Assembly: GCA_025462725.1 (NCBI GenBank)
Contig: JAOAPE010000002.1
Coordinates: forward strand, 62,001-126,000
Reading direction: 5' to 3'
Source: Terriglobales bacterium
GTDB taxonomy: Bacteria; Acidobacteriota; Terriglobia; Terriglobales; Acidobacteriaceae
DNA length: 64,000 bases
The notes under the pieces were generated by a model. The model saw only the letters and a program-made list of their open reading frames with translations, did no database searches and had not been told where the DNA came from. Every line of letters begins with the position of its first letter. The stretch's first letter is position 1. Position numbers and translations under genes: made by a program. Positions 26,495-56,956 of this stretch are shown piece after piece.

Positions 26495-26968
26495 ATGAAA
26501 CCCATAAGACTTGCCGCTTTCTGCATCCGGCCCCGACATGTAGCCTTGGCCATTTTTGATGGAATCAATCTGCTACACGTTCGCAGCATAGAGCTTCGTT
26601 CATCTCACGAGAAGGCGATGAATTCGATAACTGAATTCGCCCTCCGTGCCATAGAAGAGTTTGAGGTTGAATCTGCTGCAATACAAGTCAGCCGCCAGCC
26701 TGGTAGTCAGGCCGATCGGCTGACCGAGCATCTCATTTCCGTTCTGAGAGGTGCGAGTGTCCCGCTTCGACCCGTGAGTTATCAATCCTTGTTTAGCGCT
26801 GTTGCGTTTCCAGCTTTACAAACTCTTAAGGAACTTCGATCGGCCATGCTCGCCATATGGCCTAGCTTAGAGAACTCCCAAGCTAAGGTATTCACGATAG
26901 ATTCCGCAGCAATCGGCCTCTTCGCACAAGTACAGAGTCTGCTCGACATTAACCTTGAACCATCTTGA
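26495..26968 (+). CDS. Predicted RNase H-fold (RuvC-like) protein
   Basis: The product is 157 residues. The pattern of strands and acids (AAFCIRPRHVALAIFDG, then LLHVRSIELRSS, a helix, FEVESAAIQVSRQPG, and a C-terminal DSAAIGLFA) resembles the RuvC/YqgF RNase H-like fold. The first catalytic acid is not in the usual place, so activity is uncertain. Its stop overlaps the TTG start of the methylase gene (TTGA), so the two are translationally coupled. Confidence 0.5.
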   Translation: MKPIRLAAFCIRPRHVALAIFDGINLLHVRSIELRSSHEKAMNSITEFALRAIEEFEVESAAIQVSRQPGSQADRLTEHLISVLRGASVPLRPVSYQSLFSAVAFPALQTLKELRSAMLAIWPSLENSQAKVFTIDSAAIGLFAQVQSLLDINLEPS

Positions 26969-28863: not shown

Positions 28864-28953
28864 CCCTTCTCGTTCTACTCTCTCGGATTTGTGACAAAAA
28901 ACAGCAGGGGTAGCCATAGGTGTTTCTGCTGCTTTGAATCATGCTGCTTCTGT

Positions 28954-36137: not shown

Positions 36138-37559
36138 TCAGTTCCCGGTTATATAGTGCTGCGCTTTTGTCCAGACTTGTGCTCCGACCAAGCGCCCCAT
36201 TTTGCGACCAGCCAAGTCTGCATCTTCAAAATGGATTCCGCCATAGCGGCGTGACATTCCTGCTTCGTCTGCTGCGTCAGAGAACGTCGCCCAATGCAGT
36301 GTAACGTTACTTGCAGGGGTACTGCCCGGCTCAATTTTCGACGAACCTGCAAACGCCGTGTAGCTGCCACCGTATGCGTCGCTGTTGGTAAAGCGGAGCA
36401 AAACCTCAGCCGCAGCGGCGCTGAAGGTGCTGTGTCCTGAGACGAATTCGGGAAAAGGTGGCGTAGGAAATGTTGCTGGCTGGTAAGGCGTCCAATCCTG
36501 ACCTTGGATCTCACGTGTGCTAAGGAACGGGCCAGCCCAAGCACGGATCGGCTTGTCAGCGAAAAGAAAGCGCAGGGCGGTGACTGGCCGGACAGAATCG
36601 AAGGCGCGCTTTGAATCCCATGCGGAGATGCTGGCGTCGAGCAGCGCGTTGGTGAGAATGAAAAACATCTTTACATCTTGATCGAGGTCGTGATGGTCGC
36701 GCGCTGAGACATACTGGGCGATCAGACACCAGTGTCCGGGCGGTAATTCGGAGTTTGGACCATCTGCCCAATATTCTGCAATGACTTTCTGCTCGTCTGT
36801 CAATTTTGCGTTCAGATGAAGAATGGCCTCGGCTTGCTTTCGGTATTGGCCAGGATCACCGTCATAAGTCGCCGGTCCTAGCTTCGGACGGAACTGCGAG
36901 CCTGATGTGAGTGCAAATGGCGTGACCAGTCCCCATTGGGGAGCGACATATTTCTGAGTCGTGAATCCCCCTTGACCATCAGGGACGCGCAATGGCTGCC
37001 AACTGTTCGGGTCATTGACGTGATCGGAGTCGTTGACGGGAGCAAATCCGGTGTAGTCAGAATAACCGCCTGGATGCAGGTCGCCGAGTTGATTGGAGCC
37101 ATCTGTATGGCGATATTGCAGCACAGCCGACGCGACAACATTTCCGACTCCCGAAGGCGTGGTGGTGTTTAGACTGACATCGCTGGCGTCATAGCCTTTA
37201 GAGGTGAGAAGTTGGGCGAAGGAGGCTTTCCTAGCGGGGAACAAGTCAATGAGCACGCGATAAGCAGCGAAGCTGATTGCTTTGTTTTTGTTTTCCAGCG
37301 TGCGTTCGGAATCAGGGCGCCTTAGAGTTGTGCCTGTCAGTGTTGCGATGGCATCACTGTCATATGCTGCCCATGAGTCGAAGATCGCTGCGTGAACGAT
37401 TGCGAGGTCGCGTGCCACCATTGGAGGGCCGGGTTTAGTGTCGCGGATGGCCTGAAGTGCGGCATTGTCCCAAAGAACAACAACGGTCTGGGTTTGGGCG
37501 GAAAGGTCAGAAGCAATGATAAGCCCAGCTACTGTCAACAGCAAACGCAGTGATCTCAT
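36138..37559 (-). CDS. Secreted vanadium-dependent haloperoxidase-type (PAP2-like) protein
   Basis: The start at ATG 37559 begins a signal peptide (LRLLLTVAGLIIASDLSAQ); upstream in-frame codons look non-coding. The 473-residue product has the vanadate/phosphate site of the PAP2/haloperoxidase superfamily: FPEFVSGHSTFSAAAAEVL and SRRYGGIHFEDADLAGRKMG, with the Lys/Arg arm in DSKRAFDSVRPVTALRFLF. Members oxidise halides with peroxide or act as phosphatases; which applies cannot be told from sequence alone. It is monocistronic. Confidence 0.85.
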   Translation of the reverse strand: MRSLRLLLTVAGLIIASDLSAQTQTVVVLWDNAALQAIRDTKPGPPMVARDLAIVHAAIFDSWAAYDSDAIATLTGTTLRRPDSERTLENKNKAISFAAYRVLIDLFPARKASFAQLLTSKGYDASDVSLNTTTPSGVGNVVASAVLQYRHTDGSNQLGDLHPGGYSDYTGFAPVNDSDHVNDPNSWQPLRVPDGQGGFTTQKYVAPQWGLVTPFALTSGSQFRPKLGPATYDGDPGQYRKQAEAILHLNAKLTDEQKVIAEYWADGPNSELPPGHWCLIAQYVSARDHHDLDQDVKMFFILTNALLDASISAWDSKRAFDSVRPVTALRFLFADKPIRAWAGPFLSTREIQGQDWTPYQPATFPTPPFPEFVSGHSTFSAAAAEVLLRFTNSDAYGGSYTAFAGSSKIEPGSTPASNVTLHWATFSDAADEAGMSRRYGGIHFEDADLAGRKMGRLVGAQVWTKAQHYITGN

Positions 37560-37940
37560 GCCGGCTCCTATGGAATGTTGCACTCTGTCGTCTAGGGAAA
37601 CACCATTGATATCCGTCCTGGCAAGCCAAGACGGGGCAGCCGCGATGGCCACCCACCCACCAAAGACGCTCTATAGTTGGCTGGCGAGCAAATGATTCCG
37701 TGCCGCAGCCAGTCGGCCCATGATTGTAAGCTTCTCAATCTGGCAAATTTTGCAAGCTCAGCGGTGGCCCATACATCGCGCGCTTTTGCGCCGGTGTGTG
37801 GGTGAACGAACTTTGGAGGGTTTGTTCGGGGTGCAACGACGTTCGCGTTTTCCCATTCATTCGCTGCGCGAATGAATGGGGCACCCATCTGTCGTGGTGA
37901 TGTGAATATGTGGGCCACCCGTCCCTTCATTGACTTTGGT
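37560..37940. other. Intergenic region with long perfect hairpin
   Basis: About 380 bp have no supported gene. The stretch GCACCCATCTGTCGTGGTG...TGGGCCACCC resembles the dispersed GGGTGGCCCA-type elements common in acidobacterial intergenic DNA (recollection, not checked). Confidence 0.4.
37852..37880. terminator. 13-bp perfect stem, 3-base loop
   Basis: CCCATTCATTCGC (37852-37864), loop TGC, GCGAATGAATGGG (37868-37880). It follows the stop of the HEAT-repeat gene (37941, minus strand) by 60 bp. There is no T-run on the minus side, so it is either a factor-dependent terminator/mRNA end stabiliser or a mobile repeat. Confidence 0.5.
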
Positions 37941-41858: not shown

Positions 41859-44057
41859 CTATGTGACGTAGGGTGACAAGTCACCCGCTATCTTGCGAGC
41901 CCCGTCTAAATCCATTCGCATCGACAAGAAAGAGTTGGATAGTACGCCAGGTGGTAGTGCCCAGTCCCATTTCTCCCGAATCAATGTGGCCAAATTCAAG
42001 CCCAAACTGTCTGGATCAGTTGTCGCGTCTTTTGAAATTGTAGTCAGCGCGTGACGAACTGCTGAGGAATCGGATGCCTTGATCCGAACAGCTAGGCCTT
42101 CATTCCAGGACCTGTGTCCGGAAGTGGAGAGCAATAGAGACAATGCATCGTTTACCCGGTCGCCTCGCCAAGTGAATAAGAGTATTGAATCCCCATCCAC
42201 AAGAGCTTGCCTGGAATCCAAATGTAATTTCTCGTAGAGATCACGGGCTCCGGATAGCAATCTGCTTGCGGAATGACTCAGGAAGAGAATTGGTTCAGAT
42301 TCGCTCAATACAGCTCTCATCTCCTCCCTAACTCTGTCGTGAATCATTGCACCGGAACCCTCAAACTTCGGCGGAACGCCTCCGGGGTCGGGTACCACCG
42401 CAATTACCTTGCTTTGTGCATCAGCGGCGATGACACGCCAACGGCGTCCGCCGAAGATGATGCGCTGGTCCGCGACAAGTGGGCGAGAAATCGGCAGCGA
42501 ACCGAGAGTTCGTCCCTCGTGCTGCAATACAAACTCGTCTTCGCTCACAAATGCTGAGTAGAACTCATAATTATTTACAAGCTTCTCCCCCAATTCTCCG
42601 TGGAGAAGCAATCCGGTTCGATCCTGCATAATTAACTTCTTGTTGCCCATTTCCCTCAGAATCGAAAGAAAGCGTTCTTTGTCTATGCCGTCGAATGGGC
42701 CGTTCTCCACTAGCAACGACCAAATCAAAGCTGCCGACGCACCACTCCTCTCGGCAATAACAGACATAACCTGTTGGACAAAAGTCGATGCATGGAGTCC
42801 ATTCACATCAGGAGGCTCGAACCATCCCTTTATTAGGAGCCTAATCATGGCTACGGTTTGGATGAGCCCTTCATGCAACCGATCTGAAATGGCAGACTTT
42901 GACCTAACGGGAAATTCTTTGCAAAGGCACCGCAAGATTGCCGACTCACCGCGGCGTCGCCCCGATCGACCTAACCTTTGCCGAAGGCTTGCTACTGAAG
43001 GTGGAGAGCCGATTTGGGCAATACTTCTCACCGACCCAATATCAATTCCAAGCTCTAACGTGGATGTACATACGGCAGTGGCTGGGCATGCTCCCGATTT
43101 AAGCGCCTGCTCTGTTTCTTCCCTCAGCTGTCTTGATAGGTTTCCGTGATGCGCCCAAAACTCATTCGGAACGCCGTCCTTCTCGCATTTGCTACGCAGG
43201 AGATCGGCATACGTCTCGACTTGTGATCGGCTGTTCGGAAAGATGAGGTTATTGGTTCCCTTGAGGGTAAGGTAGAGATCTTGAGCAATTTCCTCGGTAG
43301 CACTCGATTTTCCGGCATCAGGTTGGTCCTCTTCCATATAGCATTTCACGATCACCTTCAAATCGTGCCGATCGGCCGTGCTGTTCAGCAATCGAACTGA
43401 TTCTCCCGTTCTAGGTCGCAAAAAATCGGCAGCTAGCCGCATATTTCCCAAAGTAGCGGACAGCGCCACTCGCGCTATTGTCTTGCCGGCGCAACTCTCT
43501 ACCCGGTGCAGCAGCGACTGCAATTGTTTCCCTCGTTCGGAACCGATGAACGAATGTAACTCGTCCACGACTACATACTTGAGTGATGTCACGAGCGCGG
43601 GAATAGAACTGCCTCTGGTCACAAACAAGGCTTCCAGAGATTCTGGGGTTATTAGGAGAATTCCTTTTGGCGATGTTAGAAATCGATGCTTTCGACTCGC
43701 TGAAATATCACCATGCCACGCAACTACCGGAATTTCTAAGGAATCACAAATCTCTTCAAGTCTAGACCATTGATCGTTGATCAAGGCTTTTAGTGGGCTT
43801 ATATACAGAACCGATCCCATGTTGGAATCATCGCGCAGCAAGTGAGAAATAATGGGAAAGAAAGCGGCTTCAGTTTTGCCGCTTGCGGTCGCTGCGGAAA
43901 TAATGACGTCTTGATCTGCATTGATCAATGAAGGGATCGATTGTTCTTGGATGTCTCTGAGGTCTGTCCACCCTTCACTCCAAATCCACCGCTGGATTCT
44001 TTTGTCGAGAAGTCCGAACGCAGTCGACTCAGAGCTGGAAGCTGGCGAGTTCGTCAT
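41859..44057 (-). CDS. sngC: Lhr-like DEAD/DEAH helicase, Shango SngC
   Basis: The product is 732 residues. Walker A is in SAATASGKTEAAF (about residue 58), Walker B is DELH in VVVDELHSFIGSERG, motif III is SATLGN, and motifs V/VI are TSTLELGIDIGS and QRLGRSGRR. A C-terminal region of about 350 residues follows, as in Lhr-type helicases. It overlaps the ATPase gene by 29 bases. TerB protein, BrxD-like ATPase and Lhr-like helicase in this order is the composition of the Shango anti-phage system. By that analogy the helicase acts on invading DNA. Confidence 0.85.
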   Translation of the reverse strand: MTNSPASSSESTAFGLLDKRIQRWIWSEGWTDLRDIQEQSIPSLINADQDVIISAATASGKTEAAFFPIISHLLRDDSNMGSVLYISPLKALINDQWSRLEEICDSLEIPVVAWHGDISASRKHRFLTSPKGILLITPESLEALFVTRGSSIPALVTSLKYVVVDELHSFIGSERGKQLQSLLHRVESCAGKTIARVALSATLGNMRLAADFLRPRTGESVRLLNSTADRHDLKVIVKCYMEEDQPDAGKSSATEEIAQDLYLTLKGTNNLIFPNSRSQVETYADLLRSKCEKDGVPNEFWAHHGNLSRQLREETEQALKSGACPATAVCTSTLELGIDIGSVRSIAQIGSPPSVASLRQRLGRSGRRRGESAILRCLCKEFPVRSKSAISDRLHEGLIQTVAMIRLLIKGWFEPPDVNGLHASTFVQQVMSVIAERSGASAALIWSLLVENGPFDGIDKERFLSILREMGNKKLIMQDRTGLLLHGELGEKLVNNYEFYSAFVSEDEFVLQHEGRTLGSLPISRPLVADQRIIFGGRRWRVIAADAQSKVIAVVPDPGGVPPKFEGSGAMIHDRVREEMRAVLSESEPILFLSHSASRLLSGARDLYEKLHLDSRQALVDGDSILLFTWRGDRVNDALSLLLSTSGHRSWNEGLAVRIKASDSSAVRHALTTISKDATTDPDSLGLNLATLIREKWDWALPPGVLSNSFLSMRMDLDGARKIAGDLSPYVT

Positions 44058-45324
44058 CTTGAGGAATAATCCTTTCGCTATCTCCTCCGGAATCCTTCTC
44101 TATTTCCAGATCACCGACTAAGTCCTGCCAGGTAGTGCCTGGATTTTGGTCGAGAACAGCCAACACATTAACAAACGAAGTAATGGTTGTTCTTGGCGTC
44201 CGGAAGTAGCTGTCCCCTAGCCGGTGCGAGCAGTGCTTCATGAACGCAGAAATGCCGTCATCTGGGATAAGATATCTTTCAGGCTCTCCCAATGCATACA
44301 CGTGCCTAACTTTCTGGAGAAGCACATAGAAGTCTTCCGGAGTTAAGCTACTAAGCCGGATAATTGGTCCAGAAAGATCTACCAGACCGTCAGTGGCGAA
44401 CTTATTTTCTACCAGACGTGATTGCAGCGCCGGGTAGCTGTATAACCCTCGACGTGGGTCAAGAAGGAACTCCGGCGTGCCGCCCAGAATGAATCCAACA
44501 CCTTCGGCAGATCCTTGAAGAGAGTCATTGAGTATTCGCAGTATCTGCTCGTAATTGGCCTGACGAGCCTGTGTATTCGCTAGCTTATAAAGGTTGACCA
44601 ACTCGTCTAGACAAACCAACAATCCACCATACCCAGCTAGCCGCACAAACCGCGCAAGCAGCTTTAACTGGTCATGAACAGACGAGTCATCGATGACGGT
44701 CCTTACTCCCAATGCAACTCTAGCCTCGGTCTTGGTCGTGAACTCCCCACGCAACCACCGAATCGCGTCTGCCTTCAACTGCTCATTCTGATCTTCGAAT
44801 GCACTGCAATATGAAGAGATCACATGTGCAAAATCATATCCGTTCACCATTTCGGTGAGTTGGGCCAAACGAACGCGAATTACCTCTTCTGCCGCGACTC
44901 CTTTCGACTTGCTTTCTGCTTTAGCATCGGAGATAAACTTTTCGACAATTCCTGGAAACGCTCCTCCTTCCGGTCGCGTTCTGGTTGACATGTTTTTTGC
45001 GAGTTCTGCGTATAGTGAACGGGCTTGGCCACCCGTCGCGTGAAGCCTGCGGTCAGGATTCAGATCAGCATGAACAGTAACGAGTTTCTTCTCCAGTGCG
45101 ATTGACCGCACCAGATTGAGGAAAAAAGTCTTCCCCGCGCCGTACTCGCCAATCACCAAGCGGAATGCTGAACCTCCATTTGCCACCCGGTCAATGTCCG
45201 TTATTAAGGCGCCCAGTTCACCCTTGCGCCCAACTTGGATCAGATGTTGTCCTACCTTGGGTACCACCCCAGCTCTCAATGACTGAATAACGGAATCTCG
45301 GTCTCGTGAGCGAATGCTGCTCAT
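44029..45324 (-). CDS. sngB: BrxD-like P-loop ATPase (DUF2791), Shango SngB
   Basis: The product is 431 residues. The N-terminus IQSLRAGVVPKVGQHLIQVG and Walker A in VIGEYGAGKTFFLNLVRS are typical of the BrxD/DUF2791 P-loop family known from BREX type 2. The Walker B-like segment is LLVCLDELVNLYK, and RTTITSFVNVL gives the C-terminal helical part. The ATG overlaps the TerB gene's stop (ATGA) and its own end overlaps the helicase, so the three genes are translated as a unit. Confidence 0.85.
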   Translation of the reverse strand: MSSIRSRDRDSVIQSLRAGVVPKVGQHLIQVGRKGELGALITDIDRVANGGSAFRLVIGEYGAGKTFFLNLVRSIALEKKLVTVHADLNPDRRLHATGGQARSLYAELAKNMSTRTRPEGGAFPGIVEKFISDAKAESKSKGVAAEEVIRVRLAQLTEMVNGYDFAHVISSYCSAFEDQNEQLKADAIRWLRGEFTTKTEARVALGVRTVIDDSSVHDQLKLLARFVRLAGYGGLLVCLDELVNLYKLANTQARQANYEQILRILNDSLQGSAEGVGFILGGTPEFLLDPRRGLYSYPALQSRLVENKFATDGLVDLSGPIIRLSSLTPEDFYVLLQKVRHVYALGEPERYLIPDDGISAFMKHCSHRLGDSYFRTPRTTITSFVNVLAVLDQNPGTTWQDLVGDLEIEKDSGGDSERIIPQDDELASFQL

Positions 45325-47666
45325 GCGGTTACCTTCTCCAGGATGTCCCTGTTTATTTCTACGGGATCGTCCCCGTCGGTCAATGGCATGTCAAATTTAT
45401 CAAAAGCAGCTTCATTGATGCGCTCGAGTGCCCCATCGAGCATCAGTTCCATGTCTGCTGCAGCATCCACTAGCTCGCCGCGAGACCATTGCCGTCTCGA
45501 CAACAGCAGCCGTGCGAGGCACGAATGTTCGACGTCAAGTCCAAGGAGAGTATCCGAAACAGCGAAATCATTTTCCTTTTCTAGCTCTGGGGGCTGACTC
45601 TTGGGTTCCTCTGCAAAAACGTCACCCAAGACAGCAGATATCTGTTCTGTTTCTTGCTGTAACCGTGCAATCTTATTGGTGTCCAGGGCAAAACGTTTAC
45701 CAGTCGATGGCCTCGAAGCGGCATCACGCTGGGGTCCTTCATGGATATCGACATAGACCTGCTTGGGGTCAAGCTGCAGGACTTTGTAAGTCTTTTCGAG
45801 TAGCTTCACCTCTTCGGGGCTCACCACTCCATCTGCATGCGCGACATCGACGAGGATGTCTGCGATCGTTCGTCGCGATTCGGCTGAAAGTAATTCGAGT
45901 CGCTTTTTTATGCTGGCGATAGTCGTCGGATGGACAACTTGCAACCGGAGACGCGCTTTTAATCTCTGGCGAGAGCAGCCATCTAGTTGCCCCCATGTTT
46001 CAATTGTTCTTGTCAGAAGTTGAATCTCCGGTGGAGAAGCGACCCCGTCTGCCAACGCCATCATCGACCCAAGATCTAGCATGAGGCAAGCCGCCGCATA
46101 AGAACCGGCAGAGCGCATACTCGTAGCAACACTGGGGGGTGCCAAAAATAGCACGACAGTGTCGTCTTCTCTGGGACTTCCTGCTCCCCTGGGGAAATCC
46201 GGCTCGATCGCAATCCCAAATTCTTCCAAACGTGTAGCCAAGAGTACGACCGCTCCACGACTCAATTCGCGTTCTTCGCCCAACCTCTTGAGGAGATCCT
46301 TCCAGCGAATTAAAAGTTCTCCGGTAGTAAGTTCATCCTTTATATGTTGGACGCCAGAAGCAACAGCGTTGGGCCACGCATGGACCGGAAGAAAAGCAGC
46401 CGCTTCAAGCGAATTCTTTTCATTGGGGTACCGACCCAAGAACCGACTGTAACGGTCCAACTCGGCGGTGCAATCATCTACCACCTGTTGCAGTTTCTTT
46501 TGGGGCCCCGTCACTGCACTCACATCGGGAAGGTTCCCGATTGCCCTTGAAAAGCTCTTTCCGTAAAACCCTGAAGAGGCTGGCTGATAATTGACTTGCA
46601 GCTTGGTCTTGTTTAGAGGTAGCAGCAACCCTTCCCCACAATTCTGGCTATAGTGATATGGAAAAATCTTCTCAAACTCTGCTCTGCACCTCTCAATCGG
46701 AGTTCGACGTGTGATCATCGGGTCCATAAGTGACCACTTCAGCGCCCAAGCGACTGGAACGCTTCTTCGTGCTGCAGCAAACTTGGCAAGTCCTACTCGG
46801 AAGGCAAATGGCAATTCGAATCCTTCGGGTTCAACGTCCGGAGGGCTGGAAATGTTATTCGGATCTGTATTCAACTCAGAGGCAGACACATAGTTGAGGA
46901 AGCTTGATGCATAGTGCCGGAAGGAATTATTGTCGCCGTAGATCGCAAGAAGATTTTTAATTTCATCAATTATGGTTGCGATGTCATCTTGAAACTGTGC
47001 GGCATCAATCAGTGCTCGACGTTCAAGTCCATAAAAGAACAGAAATACATAGCCGATATCCGCTTTTGGATCTCTTCGGCCGCTTGCCAGCCACTGCAGG
47101 TAGGCGCGTCTCGCCTCCGGGCTGATTCCGCTGTAGCTTGGCCAATGAGAGGTTCGCCGCTCTGAAATGTCCAGGAAGTCTCTGCTGACTTGGAGATTTG
47201 GGTTGATCAAAGCGGGGTCTTGTTGACCGCTTTCAGACCTTAGGTTTAGGCCCACATAGACCATTCCGCCAGTGATTTTTAGACCTGCAATTTCAACTAT
47301 CTCTTCAATCGGCACCCATCTTGCCTTTTGAGCCACCTCGCCGGAAGCTGGGGGCGGGATTTTTCGTTCACTCCATGTGCTCGAGGAGATAGGGAGACTG
47401 GCAACTCTTATAGGGTATGGCGCTGGGAGATCGCTTTTGTTTCTGACCGGAGCTGTCGCTCGTGAATTGGCCTGAATTGAAATGGGCGGCTCACTCTTAT
47501 TTGCGAAGGCCTTAAATGCCACCACGGCGATAGCAACTATGCCAATTAGGAGCCAAATTTCCTTTGGAATACTGGACAGCAAAACGAAGACGGCTACTAT
47601 CCCTGCCACTAATACCGACCCAGCTGAGGAACTTCGCCTCCTCCTCGCCAAAGTTACGCCTCTCAA
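45321..47666 (-). CDS. sngA: TerB-N / TerB / TerB-C membrane-anchored protein, Shango SngA
   Basis: The product is 781 residues from a TTG without a clear ribosome site (the exact start is uncertain). Two N-terminal hydrophobic segments (VLVAGIVAVFVLL; IWLLIGIVAIAVVAF) anchor it. Residues ~110-360 match TerB-N (WVPIEEIVEIAG, YSGISPEARRAYLQWLASGR, GYVFLFFYGLERRAL). About 520-660 match TerB with its acidic metal-binding helices (MMALADGVASPPEIQLL; VAHADGVVSPEEVKLLEKTY). The last ~110 residues are TerB-C-like. The membrane anchor suggests the complex watches the envelope for phage entry. It is first in the operon. Confidence 0.83.
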   Translation of the reverse strand: MRGVTLARRRRSSSAGSVLVAGIVAVFVLLSSIPKEIWLLIGIVAIAVVAFKAFANKSEPPISIQANSRATAPVRNKSDLPAPYPIRVASLPISSSTWSERKIPPPASGEVAQKARWVPIEEIVEIAGLKITGGMVYVGLNLRSESGQQDPALINPNLQVSRDFLDISERRTSHWPSYSGISPEARRAYLQWLASGRRDPKADIGYVFLFFYGLERRALIDAAQFQDDIATIIDEIKNLLAIYGDNNSFRHYASSFLNYVSASELNTDPNNISSPPDVEPEGFELPFAFRVGLAKFAAARRSVPVAWALKWSLMDPMITRRTPIERCRAEFEKIFPYHYSQNCGEGLLLPLNKTKLQVNYQPASSGFYGKSFSRAIGNLPDVSAVTGPQKKLQQVVDDCTAELDRYSRFLGRYPNEKNSLEAAAFLPVHAWPNAVASGVQHIKDELTTGELLIRWKDLLKRLGEERELSRGAVVLLATRLEEFGIAIEPDFPRGAGSPREDDTVVLFLAPPSVATSMRSAGSYAAACLMLDLGSMMALADGVASPPEIQLLTRTIETWGQLDGCSRQRLKARLRLQVVHPTTIASIKKRLELLSAESRRTIADILVDVAHADGVVSPEEVKLLEKTYKVLQLDPKQVYVDIHEGPQRDAASRPSTGKRFALDTNKIARLQQETEQISAVLGDVFAEEPKSQPPELEKENDFAVSDTLLGLDVEHSCLARLLLSRRQWSRGELVDAAADMELMLDGALERINEAAFDKFDMPLTDGDDPVEINRDILEKVTA

Positions 47667-48523: not shown

Positions 48524-48877
48524 TTAGCGAGGGCATATCTTGACCGTGCAGCGAGAGTCGCCGTCACTCTCAGTGCAATTTCCTGCCGACTCAGATGTCG
48601 CAAATCCCGAGAGAACAATTCTTCTCTTGCAGATATCTTTCGCACATACTGGGAACGTTGCTTCGCCACTTGAGTTCGTTTTTTTTGCACTCTTCTGGTT
48701 GTCGCCACAGCATGCCTGAATGGATACCTGGGCACTTTCGACAGCACTGCCGTCGCAGTCCTGCACCACAAACGTTGTCGTGCACCCTTGATGGCAGTCG
48801 CTATTCGGACCGCTCATTAGGACCAAAGCGAATGCTGCCAGTGCAGCCTTCATTACGATCAGCATTTTCGGGATCAT
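48524..48877 (-). CDS. Small exported Cys-rich protein with Cna-B-like fold
   Basis: The product is 117 residues with a signal peptide (MKAALAAFALVLMSG). The mature part has about ten cysteines, and the strand pattern CTTTFVVQDCDGSAVESAQV, then SSGEATFPV, resembles a carboxypeptidase-regulatory/Cna-B-like sandwich. The ATG overlaps the stop of the membrane protein gene upstream (ATGA), so the two are coupled. Confidence 0.65.
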   Translation of the reverse strand: MIPKMLIVMKAALAAFALVLMSGPNSDCHQGCTTTFVVQDCDGSAVESAQVSIQACCGDNQKSAKKTNSSGEATFPVCAKDICKRRIVLSGFATSESAGNCTESDGDSRCTVKICPR

Positions 48878-49683
48878 TGTTCACCTTTCCACTGCACCCA
48901 TTTCGGGGTCATGTAGTCCACCCGAATTATCTCGTCTTTCTTTATGCGCATTACCGAGTACCCGACAGTCACATTGTCAGATTTGAGATCGTTTATGAAG
49001 TAAACATCGTGATCCGACTCATATAGTAGTTGTAACGAAAATGAGTCCAGCGATTTGTTTATTTGCGGCTGATTCTTCGAAATAACAAATCGATTGGCGG
49101 GTAGATCAGTACTTTTTGTAAACACTTGGACACGCATAGGCCTACCCCCACCGAAATAAACCGGAATCTGGGGGAAATATAACTGCGAAAAATGAAAGCT
49201 AAAAATAAGTAAGAATAGCCCAGACCTCAATCGGCCGGGCAACATTGTAAGGTTTAGAGTGCGATCCCTATCAGTAGTTACGAACATCAATATCTGCATC
49301 ACACTCGAACTGATAGAGATTAGACCCAACAGCACACCTGTGTAGCCACTTGCGAATCCGACGACAAGCCAGAGGACAGTTAGAATGCCACAAAGTGCCA
49401 TGATAGCTAGAATCTTGGGTGCTTTCCTGACGCAATACAAGATTATTAATGGGGAACCTAAGTATAGACAGACGACGTAAAGTCCAAGCACTATCGATTG
49501 GGCCTTGCTGAAGTCTAGAGTCAGAATGCTAAATCGAGAGTAATAGAAACCCGAAGTTACCAGTCCAAGCACGTACAGCATCAGCCCGATCTTTGCTGTA
49601 TCCAGTCCCAGCGTCAGCAGCCAGTTAGGCCGATGAGAGCTAATATCTGGCAGTGTGGATTCATGGAGCTTTGCTGTTTCCAT
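48874..49683 (-). CDS. Multi-pass membrane protein, unknown
   Basis: The product is 269 residues with GAGGG before the ATG. There are about five to six hydrophobic segments in the first 180 residues (IGLMLYVLGLVTSGFYYS; SIVLGLYVVCLYLGSPLIIL; ILAIMALCGILTVLWLVVGF; VLLGLISISSSVMQILMFV; GLFLLIFSFHFSQL). A C-terminal extracytoplasmic domain (VQVFTKSTDLPANRFVISKN...) follows. The function is unknown. It is coupled to the exported Cys-rich protein. Confidence 0.65.
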   Translation of the reverse strand: METAKLHESTLPDISSHRPNWLLTLGLDTAKIGLMLYVLGLVTSGFYYSRFSILTLDFSKAQSIVLGLYVVCLYLGSPLIILYCVRKAPKILAIMALCGILTVLWLVVGFASGYTGVLLGLISISSSVMQILMFVTTDRDRTLNLTMLPGRLRSGLFLLIFSFHFSQLYFPQIPVYFGGGRPMRVQVFTKSTDLPANRFVISKNQPQINKSLDSFSLQLLYESDHDVYFINDLKSDNVTVGYSVMRIKKDEIIRVDYMTPKWVQWKGEQ

Positions 49684-49820
49684 CAGCCCTCATATTACCC
49701 CATTGCTTTTGCATCTGTTACAAACCCAAGGCTGGTTACGTGGTCACGCCAATGGACGATAACTAGTAATTATCCTGCACGGGCAGAACGTTTCAAAACA
49801 GTATTGAACCCAGGAATATT

Positions 49821-50495
49821 CTAGGCTCCTCGTTCTCCTGCTTCGATCTGAACTTTAGCAATATTTCCCTCCGTATCCGTTACTGTCAGCCAGCACCGCA
49901 CGGTTCGAACATCTACTGCTGGCTGTGTCGGGAGCATGAAAGGGATGTGATTGTGCGGAGCCAGCCGTTCTGCAGGGATTTCAATGTACTTCCTGACCAT
50001 TGCCGCTGGATTAAGTGCATGTTGAGCAGTTCGGCCCAACACGTAGGACTGCGGCGATGGAGATGCTGCTGCGAATTGCCCAACTCCGTCGATTTCTAGG
50101 TCATAGTTACTAACGATAGCCGAACGACTTCCTTTGTTTTCGATGGACACTACAGCCTCGAAATACATGCCGGTTGGTCCTTTAGGCGTGATTCCCTGAG
50201 GCGTGTAACAGCGAATGTAGTAGCTGCCAGGCTCTTCGCGCATCATTAAGACCGCACGGCGCGGAGCGCCCAGTTGAATAGACTGAATAACATTTTGCTG
50301 CTTCTGATATAAGCGATAGGGTGCAATCAAACAGGCGACGGCAGACAATGCGGCGGGCAACCAACGAGGCAGCGCGAACACAGGAGCATAGATTAAGACA
50401 AAAGTCATCGCCGTGGAGACCAGCCCCGCAATCACAAATAGAGTGCCCCACCATGTGCCAAATACCTCCCGTAGGTAACGGCAAAACATTCGCAC
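49821..50495 (-). CDS. Membrane-anchored protein with C-terminal beta domain, unknown
   Basis: The product is 224 residues from GTG 50495 (ATG 50489 is equally possible). Two hydrophobic segments (LFVIAGLVSTAMTFVLIYA; LPAALSAVACLIAPY) precede a ~140-residue beta-rich domain (YFEAVVSIENKGSRSAIVSN; VRTVRCWLTVTDTEGNIAKV), topologically like small Ig-type modules. It is divergent from the next gene. Confidence 0.65.
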   Translation of the reverse strand: MRMFCRYLREVFGTWWGTLFVIAGLVSTAMTFVLIYAPVFALPRWLPAALSAVACLIAPYRLYQKQQNVIQSIQLGAPRRAVLMMREEPGSYYIRCYTPQGITPKGPTGMYFEAVVSIENKGSRSAIVSNYDLEIDGVGQFAAASPSPQSYVLGRTAQHALNPAAMVRKYIEIPAERLAPHNHIPFMLPTQPAVDVRTVRCWLTVTDTEGNIAKVQIEAGERGA

Positions 50496-51230: not shown

Positions 51231-52781
51231 TCAGAGTCGTCGTAATACTTGATCAACCAGCAACTTTGCAGCCTTCTTGTTCTGAGAACACTCATAAATC
51301 AACGAGCATATCTGAACTATAATTGTTCTATCTTTCGCTTTTGCCTTACGCAATGTCTTATGGGCATACGTCTCACTAATAACTGTCTCGACCTTTTTCG
51401 ACATCACGAGTATTTTTCTGGAAAAGATTTCCTTCTCTAGCAGAGTCAAAGCCGAGTGTCCGGAAAGCCCGTCTAGACGTGCCAGTTCTTTCCGTAAGTC
51501 CCTCTCGATTTTCTTGCTATCAGTAGCAGTTACAGCACCTTGCTTCAGAACCGATATGAGGTGATCGATTTGCCCCGTCGTACCTTCAAATTGCCGAAGT
51601 ACGTTCCTTCTTATCGAACTAACTCTACAACGCTTGCTAAGGTCGCCGATTTTTGGAACTAGACGGCTAATGCAATCTCTAAAGTGTGCGCTTTGCTCAA
51701 AATGATCCCTCCGTCCGTTGGGAACTATACGTGAATCGAGAACATGGATTTCTCCCACGGACCAAGCGTTGAAGCGAGCTTCAACAAAAACTTCATCCAA
51801 AACATCTGATTCTCCCACTTGGATATTGCCACTTCGAAGCCTCAGTCCTTTGATCAAAGCCTTTCGATCGATTGCTCCGCGATAATTGTGGTGCAATATC
51901 CATCCTGAGGCGGCCAAGCCACCATCTCTTCCTTCAATGTCAAACAGTTCGACATCAATAAATCTGTCCAGTACTCTCTTCCTTGCTTCAAACTCATTCC
52001 TATGGGGACGATACAGTGGCGTATTTCTAGCGTTCACGAATATATGCACATTCCCCAGCACGAGCTTCGCTCTGAGGAAATCTTCTATTTGCTTCTTAAA
52101 TAAGAAATCAGGCGAAAAGGGAACCGGGGCTACCTGTGATAAGTAAGACTCTATTTCGCGCACATTCACTAATGAGTCGTCACCATGTCTCACAATATCC
52201 GTTAGTTCTACCTCGAAGAATCTGTCCGGCCAATCACTAGAAACAAATCGGCGAATTCTGACTACATTCTTTATTAATTGCTCTACATCAGACCGCGTAC
52301 CTTTATCTCGTAAGAGCTCCTTAAGTTTTCTACAATCCCAACGCAATTCGTTGATTTGGGACTCCCCTTCAGCGCGTGACCGGAAAATCAGCTCCTGACA
52401 GTAGCCTAATCCTGCCAAGCGGCCCACCCCGCGGAATCCCCGCGCTTTCATTCCTCTCTTACGACTTGCACCGAGGGCCACCAGTGTCTCTGCGAATTCC
52501 GATTTCGAGAGGCCCATCCCGTTATCGCGGATCAGACACCTTCTCATCTGAGCGTCAACAGTTATGTCAACCCGTCCTTCTTCGGTAGCTAGCAGCCCTG
52601 CTGCAACAGCCTCTTCGATAGAATCCGTCGAATTTTGTATATATTCCCTAAAAATGGAGAGGGGATTCACATACATTGCGCTGCTGAGTAGCTCAAGAAC
52701 ATCTTTTCCGACTACTGGTCGTTCGGTAATCTCGGTCCACGAACTCTTTATCGAAGCCAACACAGGCAGGTTGCCACTCAT
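51231..52781 (-). CDS. Hsp90/HtpG-type GHKL ATPase (gene 4 of a four-gene island)
   Basis: The start at ATG 52781 overlaps the radical-SAM gene's stop (ATGA), which decides it over an ATG at 52814. The product is 516 residues. The Bergerat fold is clear: N-box in YVNPLSIFREYIQNSTDSIE (Glu, Asn, Asp), G1 in LIRDNGMGLS, G2 in GFRGVGRLAGLG. The N-box context resembles HtpG, but the middle and C-terminal parts (after ~200) do not, and the protein is shorter than HtpG. A helical C-terminus (IERDLRKELARLDGLSGHSA) may dimerise. It probably clamps a client or nucleic acid on ATP binding. Confidence 0.85.
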   Translation of the reverse strand: MSGNLPVLASIKSSWTEITERPVVGKDVLELLSSAMYVNPLSIFREYIQNSTDSIEEAVAAGLLATEEGRVDITVDAQMRRCLIRDNGMGLSKSEFAETLVALGASRKRGMKARGFRGVGRLAGLGYCQELIFRSRAEGESQINELRWDCRKLKELLRDKGTRSDVEQLIKNVVRIRRFVSSDWPDRFFEVELTDIVRHGDDSLVNVREIESYLSQVAPVPFSPDFLFKKQIEDFLRAKLVLGNVHIFVNARNTPLYRPHRNEFEARKRVLDRFIDVELFDIEGRDGGLAASGWILHHNYRGAIDRKALIKGLRLRSGNIQVGESDVLDEVFVEARFNAWSVGEIHVLDSRIVPNGRRDHFEQSAHFRDCISRLVPKIGDLSKRCRVSSIRRNVLRQFEGTTGQIDHLISVLKQGAVTATDSKKIERDLRKELARLDGLSGHSALTLLEKEIFSRKILVMSKKVETVISETYAHKTLRKAKAKDRTIIVQICSLIYECSQNKKAAKLLVDQVLRRL

Positions 52782-54367
52782 GCCATCGTCCCCGCATAGG
52801 TGGGGATCGAACAATCCACATCTAAACCCGCATCTTCTACTCTTTCATCGTCCGGAACAATTACGCTTGGATCTGTTCGCCCTTTCCTGTTTCTAGCCCA
52901 AATGGCTGCTTCGATTCCTTTGCCGAGCGGAACATAAAAGGGAAGCAGACTCTTCAGCTGAGAGTCTGTGCTTGAAAGATTCTTAATTTCCCGAGGCTCG
53001 CAGGAGGACAGCATTGAATTTAAAGTGATTTTCTGATGGCTACTAAGACGGCTAAAAGCATTTCTAAATTCCTCGAATTCTGCTTTGCCTTCCAGTTTTT
53101 CAAACCATTCTCTGTTGAAAATAAAGTGATGCGGTCGAAGCAATAAATTCGAGAATTCCTCTGCGGAACTGCCAAATGCGCGCTTGAAAAAAACGGGGGC
53201 TCCGCTGACAACGCCGTGAGTCGCTTGAAGTATCAGTTGCAATGAACGCAGCTGGAATCGCGTCCATTTTTCTCCAATATGTGATCTGTCCGGCAAGTCA
53301 GTTGGCTGGTATCGCATCGGGAACGACCAAATGCGAATTCCAAGCTCTTCATTCAATTTAACGTTCACCAACATGCGTTCATAAAGATCGTGAGGACTGT
53401 CGTGAAAATTGTAAAGCATATAGTTCGACAACTCTCTCAACCCGAATTCCTGTGCCCACCGCACTGATGTCTCGTATTGCGCCTTCACACCAAGATGGTC
53501 AAAGGCAATTCGGAGAGGCTTAATGCATATAGATGACAGTTCTCGTAAGAACATCATGTCTTTGCAGAGAATTCTGGCATCCACTCCCTGATTGAAGTCG
53601 ACTCGCCTCTGAACAGAAGTCCGGCCTCGGCTCAATTTTGCGCCGGGTATGAATCCGAGATCTCTAATTTCCGCGATTATTTCCTTAAAAGTACCTGATG
53701 CAACGATATTATTGTCCATCAACACTAGGTCCTTCTTGGTTCCATACAGCTTGTCGATTTGTTTAACTATCGATGTGATTGAGGTCACATCCCGCTGCTC
53801 GCCTTCGAGTTTAGGGACTCCGCAAAAGCTGCATTTTCTAATACAACCACGAGACGCGTATGCGAAGTAAGCGTCGCGAACCGGGTACTTGTACGAAATT
53901 TGATCCAGAATGCTGTAGTCCGGCACGAGATCCTCGATCGGGGTACCTCTTACGTCATCCGCATAGAACTCGTCTGAGAAATCGTCAAGCTGCAATGAAG
54001 TGGCAGGGCTCTGCCCTAGCAGGCCTTTAATGAAACGAACTCCAATCCAGCGTTCGTCACGAAGGAATCTCTCATGCATTAATGAAGCGGCAATGCCACC
54101 GACAAAAATCTTGTCCTTTTGACCATTGGCGACTTTCTTCGCGAATTCGATACTTTCTGAAATTCTGTCGAATTCAAAAGAAAAGAGTGTGGTTATGTAT
54201 ATTCGATCCCACGCCTCGGAGAATACAGATTCGTCCTCTCCCTTTATAAAGCGAACACGGTCACCCTTTCCGTTCGGCCCGTGATACTGGGCGAGCTTCA
54301 TCAATCCGAGAGGCGGGTATTTGTTCTTGTAGGAAGGTTCAATAAGCAGAATGTTCTTGTTAGCCAC
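52778..54367 (-). CDS. B12-type radical SAM protein (gene 3 of the island)
   Basis: The product is 529 residues from a GTG with AGAGG upstream. The N-terminal ~130 residues (NILLIEPSYKNKYPPLGLMK; IFVGGIAASLM) follow the cobalamin-binding-type Rossmann layout, without the DxHxxG cobalamin ligand. The radical SAM cluster motif is CIRKCSFC in YASRGCIRKCSFCGVPKLEG. VLMDNNIV and RVDFNQGVDARIL match the TIM-barrel strands of B12-type radical SAM enzymes. No auxiliary Fe-S cysteine cluster is evident. The substrate is unknown. It shares a transcript with two GHKL ATPases and a methyltransferase-like protein, so it probably modifies a macromolecule (protein, RNA or DNA) held by them; this is inference. 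Confidence 0.85.
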   Translation of the reverse strand: MANKNILLIEPSYKNKYPPLGLMKLAQYHGPNGKGDRVRFIKGEDESVFSEAWDRIYITTLFSFEFDRISESIEFAKKVANGQKDKIFVGGIAASLMHERFLRDERWIGVRFIKGLLGQSPATSLQLDDFSDEFYADDVRGTPIEDLVPDYSILDQISYKYPVRDAYFAYASRGCIRKCSFCGVPKLEGEQRDVTSITSIVKQIDKLYGTKKDLVLMDNNIVASGTFKEIIAEIRDLGFIPGAKLSRGRTSVQRRVDFNQGVDARILCKDMMFLRELSSICIKPLRIAFDHLGVKAQYETSVRWAQEFGLRELSNYMLYNFHDSPHDLYERMLVNVKLNEELGIRIWSFPMRYQPTDLPDRSHIGEKWTRFQLRSLQLILQATHGVVSGAPVFFKRAFGSSAEEFSNLLLRPHHFIFNREWFEKLEGKAEFEEFRNAFSRLSSHQKITLNSMLSSCEPREIKNLSSTDSQLKSLLPFYVPLGKGIEAAIWARNRKGRTDPSVIVPDDERVEDAGLDVDCSIPTYAGTMA

Positions 54368-54457
54368 TTTACCTCTACAAGCCAGATTTGTTCAAAATAG
54401 TATCGAGAGTTTAGCACGGCCTTGTATCGACGTTTACCAGTTAAGTTTCGGCACAAT

Positions 54458-55408
54458 TCAGAGTATCGATTTGGACGATGTAGACGGAAACAATTTACGA
54501 TATCTGGCGCGAGCGTGCTTAGAAATCGAAATCCCCTTCCTTTTAATTCTTCGGGTTTGATTTACATCAATCAATTCAAGTGCCAATGATTCTTCTTGAC
54601 GTTTACGAGTAGTATCTTCCATCCGCTGAGCACGAAAAAACGAGCTCTGTGAAAGAGGGGGGTTGTCGTACACAAATTCGAAAACAAGACACAGCATTGC
54701 ACTCTTCCGAACACCGTAAGGCCGATAGACAGCTTTCCCTAGGCATCTCGTGTCAAATGTATGCTCCCCCCCGACCGTAATCACAGCTGCGGGCAAAAGG
54801 TCACTCAGAACCTTGTCGTAAGTCTTATTTGAATTGCGAGTTAAATTAAAGAGAGCCCGTGTTGAACCGAATCGAGTCGCGACATCAAAAGCCATCTTGT
54901 GCACAAAACTCTTACCGGTCGCGGTGTCAACATCGGGAGAAGTATTGAAGGCCAACAATAGAAGAAAATTCGACGCATGATGTTGCTGGTGTTCGACGAT
55001 ATTTTGAATGAGTTCGAGTTTGTGGGGCGATATCCTATTCTTTTTTAAATTGAAAAAACCGTTCGTAAAATCTAGATTAATCGCCGAGTAGGGGAAAAAG
55101 CTTGCCTCTCGATCAGTTGAGCTTAGATCAAAAGCTTCCCCCTGTTTCACCCTAAGCTCCAGTCCGAATTTCGAAATCAGTGCCTTTGCGTTCTCGTCAT
55201 TCTTCTCCCAAACGCTAATATTCTGGAGCGCAAATACAGAGTGCGTCTTGCAAAAGAACTCCACATCTCGACCTTCAGGGCCAGCAAAAGTTAAATACTT
55301 AAACGGCAAATCGAATTGAGATCGGGTCTTGAAATCCAATAAGGCCGGGAGCCAGAAATGTTCCCGTATCCATCTTTTCTCCGGCGAATTGAATAGCTCG
55401 CGGGCCAT
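54458..55408 (-). CDS. Putative Rossmann-fold methyltransferase-like protein (gene 2 of the island)
   Basis: The product is 316 residues. FKYLTFAGPEGRDVEFF resembles SAM-binding motif I, ISVWEKNDENAKALISKFGL the acidic motif II/helix, and SAINLDFTNGFFNLKKN a motif IV-like catalytic segment. A basic C-terminus (RIKRKGISISKHARARYRK) could bind nucleic acid. I do not recognise the exact family; the TcmP-type partner proteins of phage radical SAM enzymes are a weak alternative. It is separated from the GHKL gene by 6 bp and from the radical SAM gene by 90 bp. Confidence 0.6.
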   Translation of the reverse strand: MARELFNSPEKRWIREHFWLPALLDFKTRSQFDLPFKYLTFAGPEGRDVEFFCKTHSVFALQNISVWEKNDENAKALISKFGLELRVKQGEAFDLSSTDREASFFPYSAINLDFTNGFFNLKKNRISPHKLELIQNIVEHQQHHASNFLLLLAFNTSPDVDTATGKSFVHKMAFDVATRFGSTRALFNLTRNSNKTYDKVLSDLLPAAVITVGGEHTFDTRCLGKAVYRPYGVRKSAMLCLVFEFVYDNPPLSQSSFFRAQRMEDTTRKRQEESLALELIDVNQTRRIKRKGISISKHARARYRKLFPSTSSKSIL

Positions 55409-55414
55409 GAAAAT

Positions 55415-56956
55415 CTAATTAGCCCTGCGAGCTTCGAACAGGTCTTCAACTATCTTAAATATCTCATCAGTCATTCGATTTGCATCTCCTGCTGCGCGTT
55501 CACGGCCTATACCAATGGCAATAAGGAAAGCCTCCACTAGCTCTTTCTCATTGGCTTTTAGTTTGCGAAAAATCTTATGGCCTTCGTTAACTACTACTTT
55601 GCCGGTCTTTGAATCGATGTAGATCGGTGGCTTGTTGCTTTGTTTTTCGACATGTAATGAGAGAGGCTTTCTTCGATGCATTGACCTCAAATAGGTGGAT
55701 ACTTTGGCATCCATCTTTTCGCGGAAGCTCTCCGCTTTGCGCTCTTTTTCGATGTTCGACCGCTTACGTGAACGTGAAGTTGCACCACCAAATGCATCCC
55801 TCAACACATTGTGGACGATCTCCCGAAACGCCTTATAATTTTTGTCAGTCTCCCTGAATCGATCTCTGTCAATTAGAAGAGCTTGCTCCAGCCCGCGATA
55901 AACATAGATTTCGCCACTAGTAAGGACTAGCCTCGGCCCCATACTCTGTTGGTACTGCATCCAGTTCAGGTCGTACTTTCCTATGGCGACATTATTTACT
56001 CTAATCAGCCCTCCACGAATATCTGCAGGCATGATCGCCGTTGCTTGACTGAAGATGTAACCCCTGAATTCCAGTGTCGAGTCAGAGTGTTCAACCGGAT
56101 AGATTTCATAGTCCAATCCACGTTTATATTTCTTCTGTGCACTATAGCGAACATCTGCAGATGGCAATTGCAATGGTTTGAGTAATTTTTGACCATTAAC
56201 AGAAACCGAAAAATTTGCCTTTAACAACTCATTCTTGATCGTGCCGATCGGTGTTCCAGAAAACCCCTTGAAAGGGCTGTCGCCGGAATAGGGCACTGGG
56301 CTTACTAAAGCTAGTTCCCACTTGAATTGCTCAACACCACTTAGTTCTCCGACATTGCTTATGTATTGATCTGCGCTCACTCCTTTCTTGCTCAGAAATT
56401 CTCGCATTTCGGGTGTGAGATCTCTCAATGTGATAAATGTGTAATGAGAAGACTTTTCTTCGTTTCCCCATTTGGTGAGTTGATACACATAGTGGCTTTC
56501 GAGATCCTCGTCCTGCTTCGCCAACTCCAACACCTTGGGAATATCGAGAATCGCTTCCAGCCGCTCTGCCGATCCCTGTTGGGTCGTCAGGACTCGGACC
56601 TCCTTACATATGTTTATCACCGAGAGGGCGCCGATCCCTTTATGCCCGATCAAGCGTCTACCTTGCCGCACTGAAGCTTGTGTAGCCGTCGAGCCTCCAA
56701 TCCGCAAGAAGCGCTCTCGGATGTCGTCTTCAGACATGCCAACTCCATCGTCGAGAATCGTAATCTCACTAAAGTCTTCGGATATTTTGAATTGCACATT
56801 GGAAGCTAATGCGTCCCAAGCATTGCTAACTAATTCCTTTGCAGCACGGGAGTAACTGACGTACGTTCCCCGACTCAGTTCTGAGAGGATGCGAAGAGCT
56901 GGCGTTCGGGGTCTTTCAACTACGGTTGTGCCCGTAGATTCATCTTTAGGGGGCAT
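55415..56956 (-). CDS. MutL/MORC-like GHKL ATPase (gene 1 of the island)
   Basis: The product is 513 residues. Bergerat motifs: N-box in YSRAAKELVSNAWDALASNV, G1 in TILDDGVGMSEDD, G2 in LIGHKGIGALSVINICKEVR, with the lid RIGGSTAT between them. A second S5-like domain (VPYSGDSPFKGFSGTPIG...; IRGGLIRVNNVAIGKYDLNW) and a basic linker (SRSRKRSNIEKERKAESFRE) follow. It differs in subfamily from the HtpG-like ATPase three genes downstream, so the operon has two unlike clamp ATPases. A clean motif copy lies 72 bp upstream. Confidence 0.87.
   Translation of the reverse strand: MPPKDESTGTTVVERPRTPALRILSELSRGTYVSYSRAAKELVSNAWDALASNVQFKISEDFSEITILDDGVGMSEDDIRERFLRIGGSTATQASVRQGRRLIGHKGIGALSVINICKEVRVLTTQQGSAERLEAILDIPKVLELAKQDEDLESHYVYQLTKWGNEEKSSHYTFITLRDLTPEMREFLSKKGVSADQYISNVGELSGVEQFKWELALVSPVPYSGDSPFKGFSGTPIGTIKNELLKANFSVSVNGQKLLKPLQLPSADVRYSAQKKYKRGLDYEIYPVEHSDSTLEFRGYIFSQATAIMPADIRGGLIRVNNVAIGKYDLNWMQYQQSMGPRLVLTSGEIYVYRGLEQALLIDRDRFRETDKNYKAFREIVHNVLRDAFGGATSRSRKRSNIEKERKAESFREKMDAKVSTYLRSMHRRKPLSLHVEKQSNKPPIYIDSKTGKVVVNEGHKIFRKLKANEKELVEAFLIAIGIGRERAAGDANRMTDEIFKIVEDLFEARRAN

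Follow-up and report, generated by a model that had tools for sequence, protein, structure and literature searches.

A radical SAM–GHKL gene pair with exchangeable neighbouring modules in a Terriglobales bacterium, a possible restriction-modification-like system

Layout of the operon and its constant core

The genes described here form a four-gene operon in a 64,000-nucleotide stretch of DNA from Terriglobales bacterium GCA_025462725.1 (contig JAOAPE010000002.1, positions 62,001-126,000 of the forward strand), referred to below as the window. They encode, in order, a GHKL ATPase (GHKL-A), a protein of predicted methyltransferase fold (P3), a radical S-adenosylmethionine (SAM) enzyme (rSAM) and a second GHKL ATPase (GHKL-B) (Table 1). 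An earlier note on this DNA had described a tightly packed minus-strand operon, and open reading frame (ORF) analysis of the window confirmed all four ORFs on that strand, with 6 bp between GHKL-A and P3, 90 bp between P3 and rSAM and an ATGA overlap between rSAM and GHKL-B. The ATG at 52781 is most likely the GHKL-B start, the longest ORF beginning at a TTG at 52814. A promoter and terminator scan of the operon performed no better than on shuffled sequence.

Table 1. Features of the operon, in window coordinates
Feature	Position	Strand	Remarks
GHKL-A, MORC/MutL-like ATPase, 513 aa	55415-56956	-	HATPase_c_3 3.1e-16; N-terminal part resembles BbrUII/HgiDII restriction enzymes
GHKL-A N box ELVSNAWD, residues 41-48	56813-56836	-	Coordinates computed by hand
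P3, methyltransferase-fold (predicted) partner of GHKL-A, distant PP_RS20740-family relative, 316 aa	54458-55408	-	NF047698 1.6e-10
P3 NLDF motif region, at the position of methyltransferase motif IV (placed by eye)	55055-55078	-	D113 invariant in 6 relatives; coordinates computed by hand
rSAM, radical SAM enzyme, N-terminal domain of cobalamin type (predicted), 529 aa, GTG start	52778-54367	-	Core gene
rSAM CxxxCxxC (CIRKCSFC), residues 175-182	53822-53845	-	In 30/30 aligned relatives; coordinates computed by hand
GHKL-B, HtpG-like ATPase, core partner of rSAM, 516 aa	51231-52781	-	HATPase_c_3 1.8e-12
ATGA 4-bp overlap, rSAM stop/GHKL-B start	52778-52781	-	In-frame overlap

The constant part of the system is the pair made up of rSAM and GHKL-B. 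A total of 69 rSAM loci (numbered with the prefix L) were tabulated, 18 repeat-place loci being left out. The 58 close loci, at least 53% identical in rSAM, include the window and the second copy of the same genome and contain some near copies (L013/L014/L016; L010/L015; L032/L048); three of them stop at the contig edge. In 55 of the 55 loci with downstream sequence, the gene that immediately follows rSAM, on the same strand and within 300 bp, encodes a GHKL protein, and the four-gene observation is therefore not due to chance. The 4-bp stop/start overlap is kept in frame in 46 of these 55, the window included, and pairwise identities of rSAM and GHKL-B are correlated (r 0.868, n=52; 0 of 2000 permutations as high). 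Among the 11 distant loci (27-43% identity; L055-L057, L067, L081-L087), which lie outside the 58, an adjacent GHKL gene was found in five (L067, L082, L084, L086, L087).

Modules exchanged around the core

What surrounds the core varies from locus to locus in the form of interchangeable modules, several with nuclease families or motifs. Across the 58 loci, DGQHR proteins were counted at 34, a ParB/SNF2 module at 34, a PIN_8 protein with a GHKL ATPase at 20, a long DGQHR protein at 10, P3 at 6 and a HerA-like protein at 3; P3 occurs with PIN_8 or ParB/SNF2 at 0 of the 58, and with DGQHR once (L020). The names PIN_8, ParB, helicase and DGQHR were drawn from one locus (L005; Pfam, NCBIfam, PADLOC), from plasmid annotation and from purpose-built profiles. 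The PIN_8 protein matches PF18476 at 3.4e-25 and retains D40, E79, D226 and D251 in 20/20 sequences, and the L005 DGQHR protein is DndB-like (TIGR03187 2e-44; DpdB 1.5e-17). The ParB/SNF2 module consists of two ParB-like proteins, a name weakly supported by model (ParB_N 0.048, TIGR00180 0.0013), and a SNF2-type helicase, which in L005 shows similarity to ZorD and DpdE. It often includes a 139-residue protein with P51-D52 and E67-A68-K69 in 14/14 aligned sequences (D52, E67, A68 and K69 in 23/24); judged by these residues alone, the protein would carry a PD-(D/E)XK-like motif.

Three distant loci (L067, L084, L087) have the arrangement NurA-HerA-GHKL-rSAM. Their HerA alignment matches solved HerA at 2e-46, and the NurA alignment gave no match in a PDB profile search. 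The NurA-like protein of L067 matches a protein of Marinitoga camini virus 1 (1e-19; recorded there as a Rad50/Mre11-associated exonuclease), and in that virus an rSAM relative lies beside HerA and a NurA-like gene. On two viral contigs (L083:6254-7939, L085:6364-7929) the distant rSAM directly follows a protein judged ParB-like by eye from its DGNRR motif, and a GHKL match is absent.

The single fixed four-gene machine proposed in the earlier note was rejected because modules are swapped around rSAM and GHKL-B among the 58 loci, GHKL-A with P3 being one of several. The four genes do occur together in order and on one strand in the window and in Rhizobium (L020, with two DGQHR genes inserted).

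Predicted properties of the four proteins

Family models match rSAM only below their thresholds: Pfam Radical_SAM at 2.3e-3, below its cut-off, and the NCBIfam models for PhpK, RimO and the B12-rSAM family at 3.6e-6 to 5.6e-6, all far below theirs. Only the three CxxxCxxC cysteines are invariant among 30 aligned relatives, and the window protein has no cysteine in its first 170 residues; FNQGxDxR and DNN motifs are conserved in the family. The structure model (predicted local distance difference test score, pLDDT, 81.7; below 50 in the stretch 174-190, which includes the cysteine motif) matched MgmA (Z 14.0, root-mean-square deviation (rmsd) 4.3, 328 aligned), AprD4 (13.6), MiaB (13.2) and TsrM (12.8), with MtaB nearly tied too; rows with a Z difference below 1 were treated as tied. 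Residues 3-135 matched AerR (Z 9.7, rmsd 2.9, 115 aligned) and, at Z 9.1, the cobalamin domain of MetH, with CheY-like domains and decarboxylase domains also matching (Z 8 to 9). Because of these fold matches and the restriction of invariant cysteines to three, rSAM is probably a single-cluster radical SAM enzyme of cobalamin-type build, and would most simply be a methylase. The earlier description of a B12-type radical SAM protein is supported, the radical SAM assignment by the cysteine motif and by the fold, which is clear in the model, and the B12 type as a prediction. A methylthiotransferase of the MiaB/RimO type was rejected, the cysteines of an auxiliary iron-sulfur cluster being absent. 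The two-domain fold and CxxxCxxC are common to rSAM, the cobalamin-type radical SAM methylases (MgmA, TsrM, CysS, TokK) and MiaB/RimO, but rSAM lacks both DxHxxG and auxiliary-cluster cysteines, has the FNQGxDxR and DNN motifs and stands in an operon with GHKL genes.

This build bears on a viperin-like role, in which phage polymerases would be poisoned by a modified free nucleotide made by rSAM, with the ParB-like or GHKL proteins as nucleotide sensors. Viperins and rSAM are both radical SAM enzymes in defence-like neighbourhoods, and ParB-superfamily proteins bind nucleotides. We nonetheless consider such a role very improbable, given the two-domain fold with a cobalamin-type N-terminus, the constant GHKL partner and the lack of any PADLOC match for rSAM at E 0.1 (the presence of viperin models in that library is unverified).

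The two GHKL ATPases are unlike one another, as had been claimed, and both keep the N box, DxGxG and GxxGxG. GHKL-B is of the HSP90/HtpG-like sort (PRK14083 HSP90 family 9.7e-12; HtpG 2ior 3.4e-4). GHKL-A is of the MutL/MORC sort (MutL 1.1e-3 in PDB; motifs ELVSNAWD, DDGVG and GHKGIG), and its residues 21-184, and only these, match the BbrUII/HgiDII model NF050001 at 8.7e-30, with 103.8 bits against a cut-off of 550. No nuclease motif was recognised in its C-terminal part or in P3.

P3 has no Pfam match, and NF047698 covers only its residues 100-173, far below cut-off. Its distant relationship to the P3 of L088 was seen by blastp (E 1.7e-6, 312 columns, 21% identity). The earlier note had called P3 a Rossmann methyltransferase-like protein, and methyltransferases dominate the fold matches of its AlphaFold2 model (best Trm1, Z 14.1, rmsd 3.8, 226 aligned), with a few plant GRAS proteins among them. 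The model is of low confidence (pLDDT 57.3, predicted template modelling score 0.65), so the fold match is only supportive, and SAM binding is uncertain because, by eye, motif I departs from the usual GxG. A profile search in PDB gave a best E of 1, plasmid searches with P3 and with the P3 proteins of L065, L068 and L088 gave no match, and viral scans with P3 and with that of L097 gave nothing useful.

P3 was rejected as a housekeeping enzyme, being rare and found at rSAM loci. A P3 profile found it in 3 of the 32 rSAM genomes searched (out of 40), always at the rSAM locus, those three sequences being part of the profile. Of 299 genomes searched from the phylum to which L020 belongs, two had it, the L020 genome among them. 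NF047698 matched two genomes among 297 from the window's phylum, one of them the window's own, and in 1 of 303 of another class. In the text available of PMC9630843, PP_RS20740 itself is a hypothetical protein that carries a mutation in Pseudomonas putida tolerant of furfural. DUF5131-like proteins with a cysteine cluster were seen near P3-GHKL at three of the six P3 loci (L065:5713-6591, PF07505 1.1e-97; L006:8722-9633 and L020:2552-3328, the latter two by eye). The three-Cys-motif partner TcmP, a partner of DUF5131-like proteins, is kept as a lead for the family of P3; the TcmP model is absent from the NCBIfam matches of P3 and of the L006, L065 and L068 P3 proteins.

P3-GHKL cassettes and the case for restriction-modification

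P3-like proteins are present at six rSAM loci (the window, L065, L006, L012, L038, L020). A second GHKL gene adjoins P3 in five of them, counting L012, where the call is weak (P_loop_sacsin 0.0054) and the contig start truncates P3; at the remaining locus only 0.35 kb of contig follows P3. In the rSAM tree (a quick search, midpoint rooted, with long branches in the distant rows; 65 of the 69 loci, L040, L055, L056 and L057 being left out as short or phage) the window, L065, L006, L038 and L012 form one group (Shimodaira-Hasegawa-like approximate likelihood ratio test support 88), all with P3, and L020 falls among rhizobia. No DGQHR, PIN or ParB/helicase gene was seen in this group, although the sequence is short for L012 and L038 (5-kb contigs each) and, upstream, for L006 (1.1 kb). 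The placement of the cassette varies within the group: it is upstream in the operon in the window; in L065 and L006 it is convergent and comes with HerA and a different type of GHKL; it is convergent in L038, and divergent in L012, there with a third GHKL-like protein. Such different cassettes on the same core point to a functional connection beyond common descent.

Three P3-GHKL pairs were found with no rSAM within 17-20 kb, and a DNA methyltransferase adjoins all three. In L068 it is of N4/N6 type and the GHKL gene lies in two frames; in L088 it is of C5 type (by sequence and because it matches a phage protein annotated as cytosine methyltransferase) and convergent with P3. L097:8005-12252 holds a C5 methyltransferase (by sequence), a GHKL gene and a PP_RS20740-family protein in one operon, overlapping or closely spaced; this P3 is a full NF047698 member (4.1e-94), and the operon suggests a restriction-modification (R-M) role for that family. 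Plasmid relatives of GHKL-A, matched in its ATPase part (12 plasmids; 17-32% of GHKL-A covered), likewise have a cytosine methyltransferase adjacent in 6 of the 7 regions opened, and one is annotated for 2 of the remaining 5. A tblastn search of the window with two C5 and one N4/N6 methyltransferase at E 1e-3 found none, and the one PF00145 match of the genome is at C40:181546 on the same contig, about 63 kb away. Since P3-GHKL stands beside methyltransferases elsewhere, rSAM with GHKL-B would occupy the slot of the DNA methyltransferase.

We infer, with about as much doubt as confidence, a mobile, modular R-M-like system in which rSAM marks DNA and GHKL-A with P3 restricts. The predicted cobalamin-type radical SAM methylase would put the mark on DNA, for instance by C-methylation, and GHKL-B would assist it as an ATP-gated clamp or a loading factor. 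GHKL-A and P3 would make up the restriction arm, in which a BbrUII/HgiDII-type GHKL clamp would attack DNA with no mark or the wrong one. The place of this arm would be taken in relatives by PIN_8-GHKL or by the ParB-like proteins with the SNF2-type helicase and the PD-(D/E)XK-like protein, and at some distant loci by NurA-HerA. The stronger proposal, a categorically new R-M class in which a cobalamin-type rSAM on a GHKL clamp makes a carbon-centred self mark on a DNA base and the restriction arms are interchangeable, is conceivable and rather doubtful. Phage thymidine hypermodification includes a radical SAM step and serves as precedent; no paper on it was found in the open-licence literature search.

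An RNA or protein substrate is unlikely; with a function for the mobile element itself, it is one of the two main rival readings. On such a reading rSAM would act on tRNA, rRNA or a protein within the complex, GHKL-B would be an HSP90-like chaperone or switch, and loss of the modification would release the nuclease modules as abortive-infection effectors. MiaB, MtaB and RimO are among the best fold or sequence matches of rSAM; MgmA and TsrM are equally near by fold and act on protein or amino acid; GHKL-B is HtpG-like; and PIN domains often cut RNA. Set against this are the absence of auxiliary-cluster cysteines from rSAM, the DNA families among its partners (ParB-like, DndB-like, SNF2-like and HerA/NurA) and the pairing of P3-GHKL cassettes with DNA methyltransferases when rSAM is absent.

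Several observations weigh against DNA marking and restriction. As to the mark, the rSAM fold resembles MiaB, which acts on tRNA, and enzymes acting on proteins or small molecules, and DxHxxG was present in 0 of 30 rSAM relatives, so that cobalamin binding is uncertain; TsrM likewise lacks this motif. P3, methyltransferase-like by fold, could itself be the modifier. As to the arms, PIN_8 might cut RNA, a PDB profile search with the 139-residue protein gave no nuclease, and three of the 58 loci showed no module (L051, with no upstream sequence; L029, with none downstream; L074, with 2.2 kb upstream). The methyltransferase-linked P3 relatives are distant (about 20% identity); one GHKL-A relative, H29, has restriction-type genes and no methyltransferase; and the absence of DNA methyltransferases from rSAM loci other than the distant phage L057 was seen in a search with three queries only, the methyltransferases of L068, L088 and L097. 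A D12 adenine DNA methyltransferase gene is present in the window itself (26965-27720), 23.5 kb from the operon. Finally, six of the 11 distant loci have no adjacent GHKL gene (L055, L056, L057, L081, L083, L085): L081 has rSAM beside a long DGQHR gene, L055 beside HerA and NurA, and L056 and L057 are phages with annotated methyltransferases near rSAM.

Among known systems, GHKL-A shares its N-terminal ATPase part with BbrUII/HgiDII-type R-M systems (a GHKL restriction enzyme with a C5 methyltransferase), but at 513 residues shows no match to the C-terminal part of the 659-position model, and the operon has rSAM and a second GHKL in place of a DNA methyltransferase. MORC and paraMORC ATPases occur in R-M operons (Iyer et al. 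2008, PMC2292703), and 'radical SAM' is absent from the main text of that paper as available; the plasmid GHKL-A relatives and the P3-GHKL pairs lacking rSAM resemble such operons in standing beside DNA methyltransferases. With Dnd (phosphorothioate) and Dpd (7-deazaguanine) systems, core relatives share DndB/DGQHR proteins and SNF2-type helicases, but none of the window's four genes encodes DGQHR, and the conserved enzyme is rSAM with its GHKL; no dnd or dpd modification enzyme was named in the seven annotated plasmid regions opened. A reappraisal of Dnd (PMC10853773) covers HerA/FtsK capture systems, and in the portion available both mentions of 'radical SAM' concern DndC. HerA and NurA are shared with NurA-HerA systems by the three distant core versions and by the Marinitoga camini virus 1 relative; the window operon, in contrast, has neither, and the second copy has a HerA-like ATPase, another GHKL and P3. 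A three-gene rSAM module with DUF483 in Thermus phages (PMC11437467) is, by the description available, a different gene set.

The impression in the earlier note that the set matched no named defence system held: rSAM and GHKL-B have no match in PADLOC-DB 2.0.0 at E 0.1, GHKL-A matches REase_II and TmtA via its ATPase part only, and P3 has one weak match (PDC-M58A, 0.015). Full-text searches of open-licence PubMed Central papers turned up no recognisable account of the rSAM-GHKL core, the available parts of PMC12926258 and PMC12715929 included; subscription papers and preprints, which may describe it, lie outside that scope.

Distribution, mobility and neighbourhood

The gene set is real, rare and mobile. 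Relatives of rSAM at 53-78% identity were found on 40 genome-collection contigs labelled Acidobacteriota, Pseudomonadota, Verrucomicrobiota and Binatota, a lower bound, the loci having been found via six short peptide seeds; on viral contigs (L046-L051, L074-L087, several being the same contigs and some carrying the distant relatives); and on 12 plasmid records, 7 of them typed as conjugative, from Rhizobium, Mesorhizobium, Bradyrhizobium, Agrobacterium, Novosphingobium and Roseomonas. Annotated regions were opened for 7 of the 12 (H1, H2, H3, H4, H7, H9, H10). In the window's phylum rSAM was present in 3 of 396 genomes (its own, one close and one distant relative), and in another class in 1 of 289, the centre genome itself. 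Integrase-like and relaxase-like ORFs, read from sequence by eye, lie beside L065 and L066, respectively. Homologs scattered in housekeeping loci, which would have spoken against the earlier note's proposal, were not what was seen: the relatives are rare and patchy, some of them on plasmids or viral contigs or near integrase- or relaxase-like genes.

On another reading the core would serve the mobile elements that carry it (plasmids, integrative elements, prophages), marking or protecting element DNA against host defences and competing elements rather than providing host immunity. The plasmid records, the viral contigs and the integrase-like and relaxase-like ORFs all agree with this. Defence systems travel on such elements too, a host could use the exchangeable nuclease modules just as well, and Shango is near the operon; we regard service to mobile elements as quite unlikely.

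A second copy lies on the same contig (L065:7104-14043 = C40:49104-56043), about 6 kb before the window start and about 59 kb from the operon, with rSAM 77% and GHKL-B 59% identical to those of the window. Its HerA-like, other GHKL and P3-like genes are convergent to rSAM/GHKL-B, and the contig thus carries two versions of one rare system. Flanking it are a tyrosine-recombinase-like ORF (L065:15205-16668, by eye) and a 400-residue protein with a class-I glutamine amidotransferase/peptidase C26 domain and a HEPN domain (L065:4505-5707).

The defence-like setting claimed for the operon was borne out by PADLOC matches to a Shango operon 3.6 kb away (window 41859-47666; SngA 2.3e-106, SngB 8.4e-179, SngC 5.9e-267). 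SngA here is up to 781 residues long against a 528-position model. Two ORFs between Shango and the operon (48874-50495; 269 and 224 residues) appear membrane-like by eye and have no Pfam, NCBIfam or PADLOC match at E 0.1. Elsewhere in the window, 36138-37652 encodes a vanadium-chloroperoxidase-like protein (VCPO_2nd 7.1e-29, DUF6851 1.1e-44), and 26965-31132, a row comprising the D12 methyltransferase, a 380-residue protein with no Pfam or PADLOC match, a HerA/TraD-like ATPase (mad8 7.6e-20) and Replic_Relax, is probably a mobile element.

The system is real, unusual and modular, and probably undescribed. If the R-M-like reading is true, self and non-self DNA would be told apart by a mark made through radical chemistry rather than ordinary methyl transfer, and both the DNA modification and the family of restriction arms would be new. 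Were the substrate something other than DNA, there would still be a recurrent rSAM-GHKL pair with swappable, often nuclease-like modules, found in four named phyla, on plasmids and on viral contigs, whose core matches no PADLOC model.

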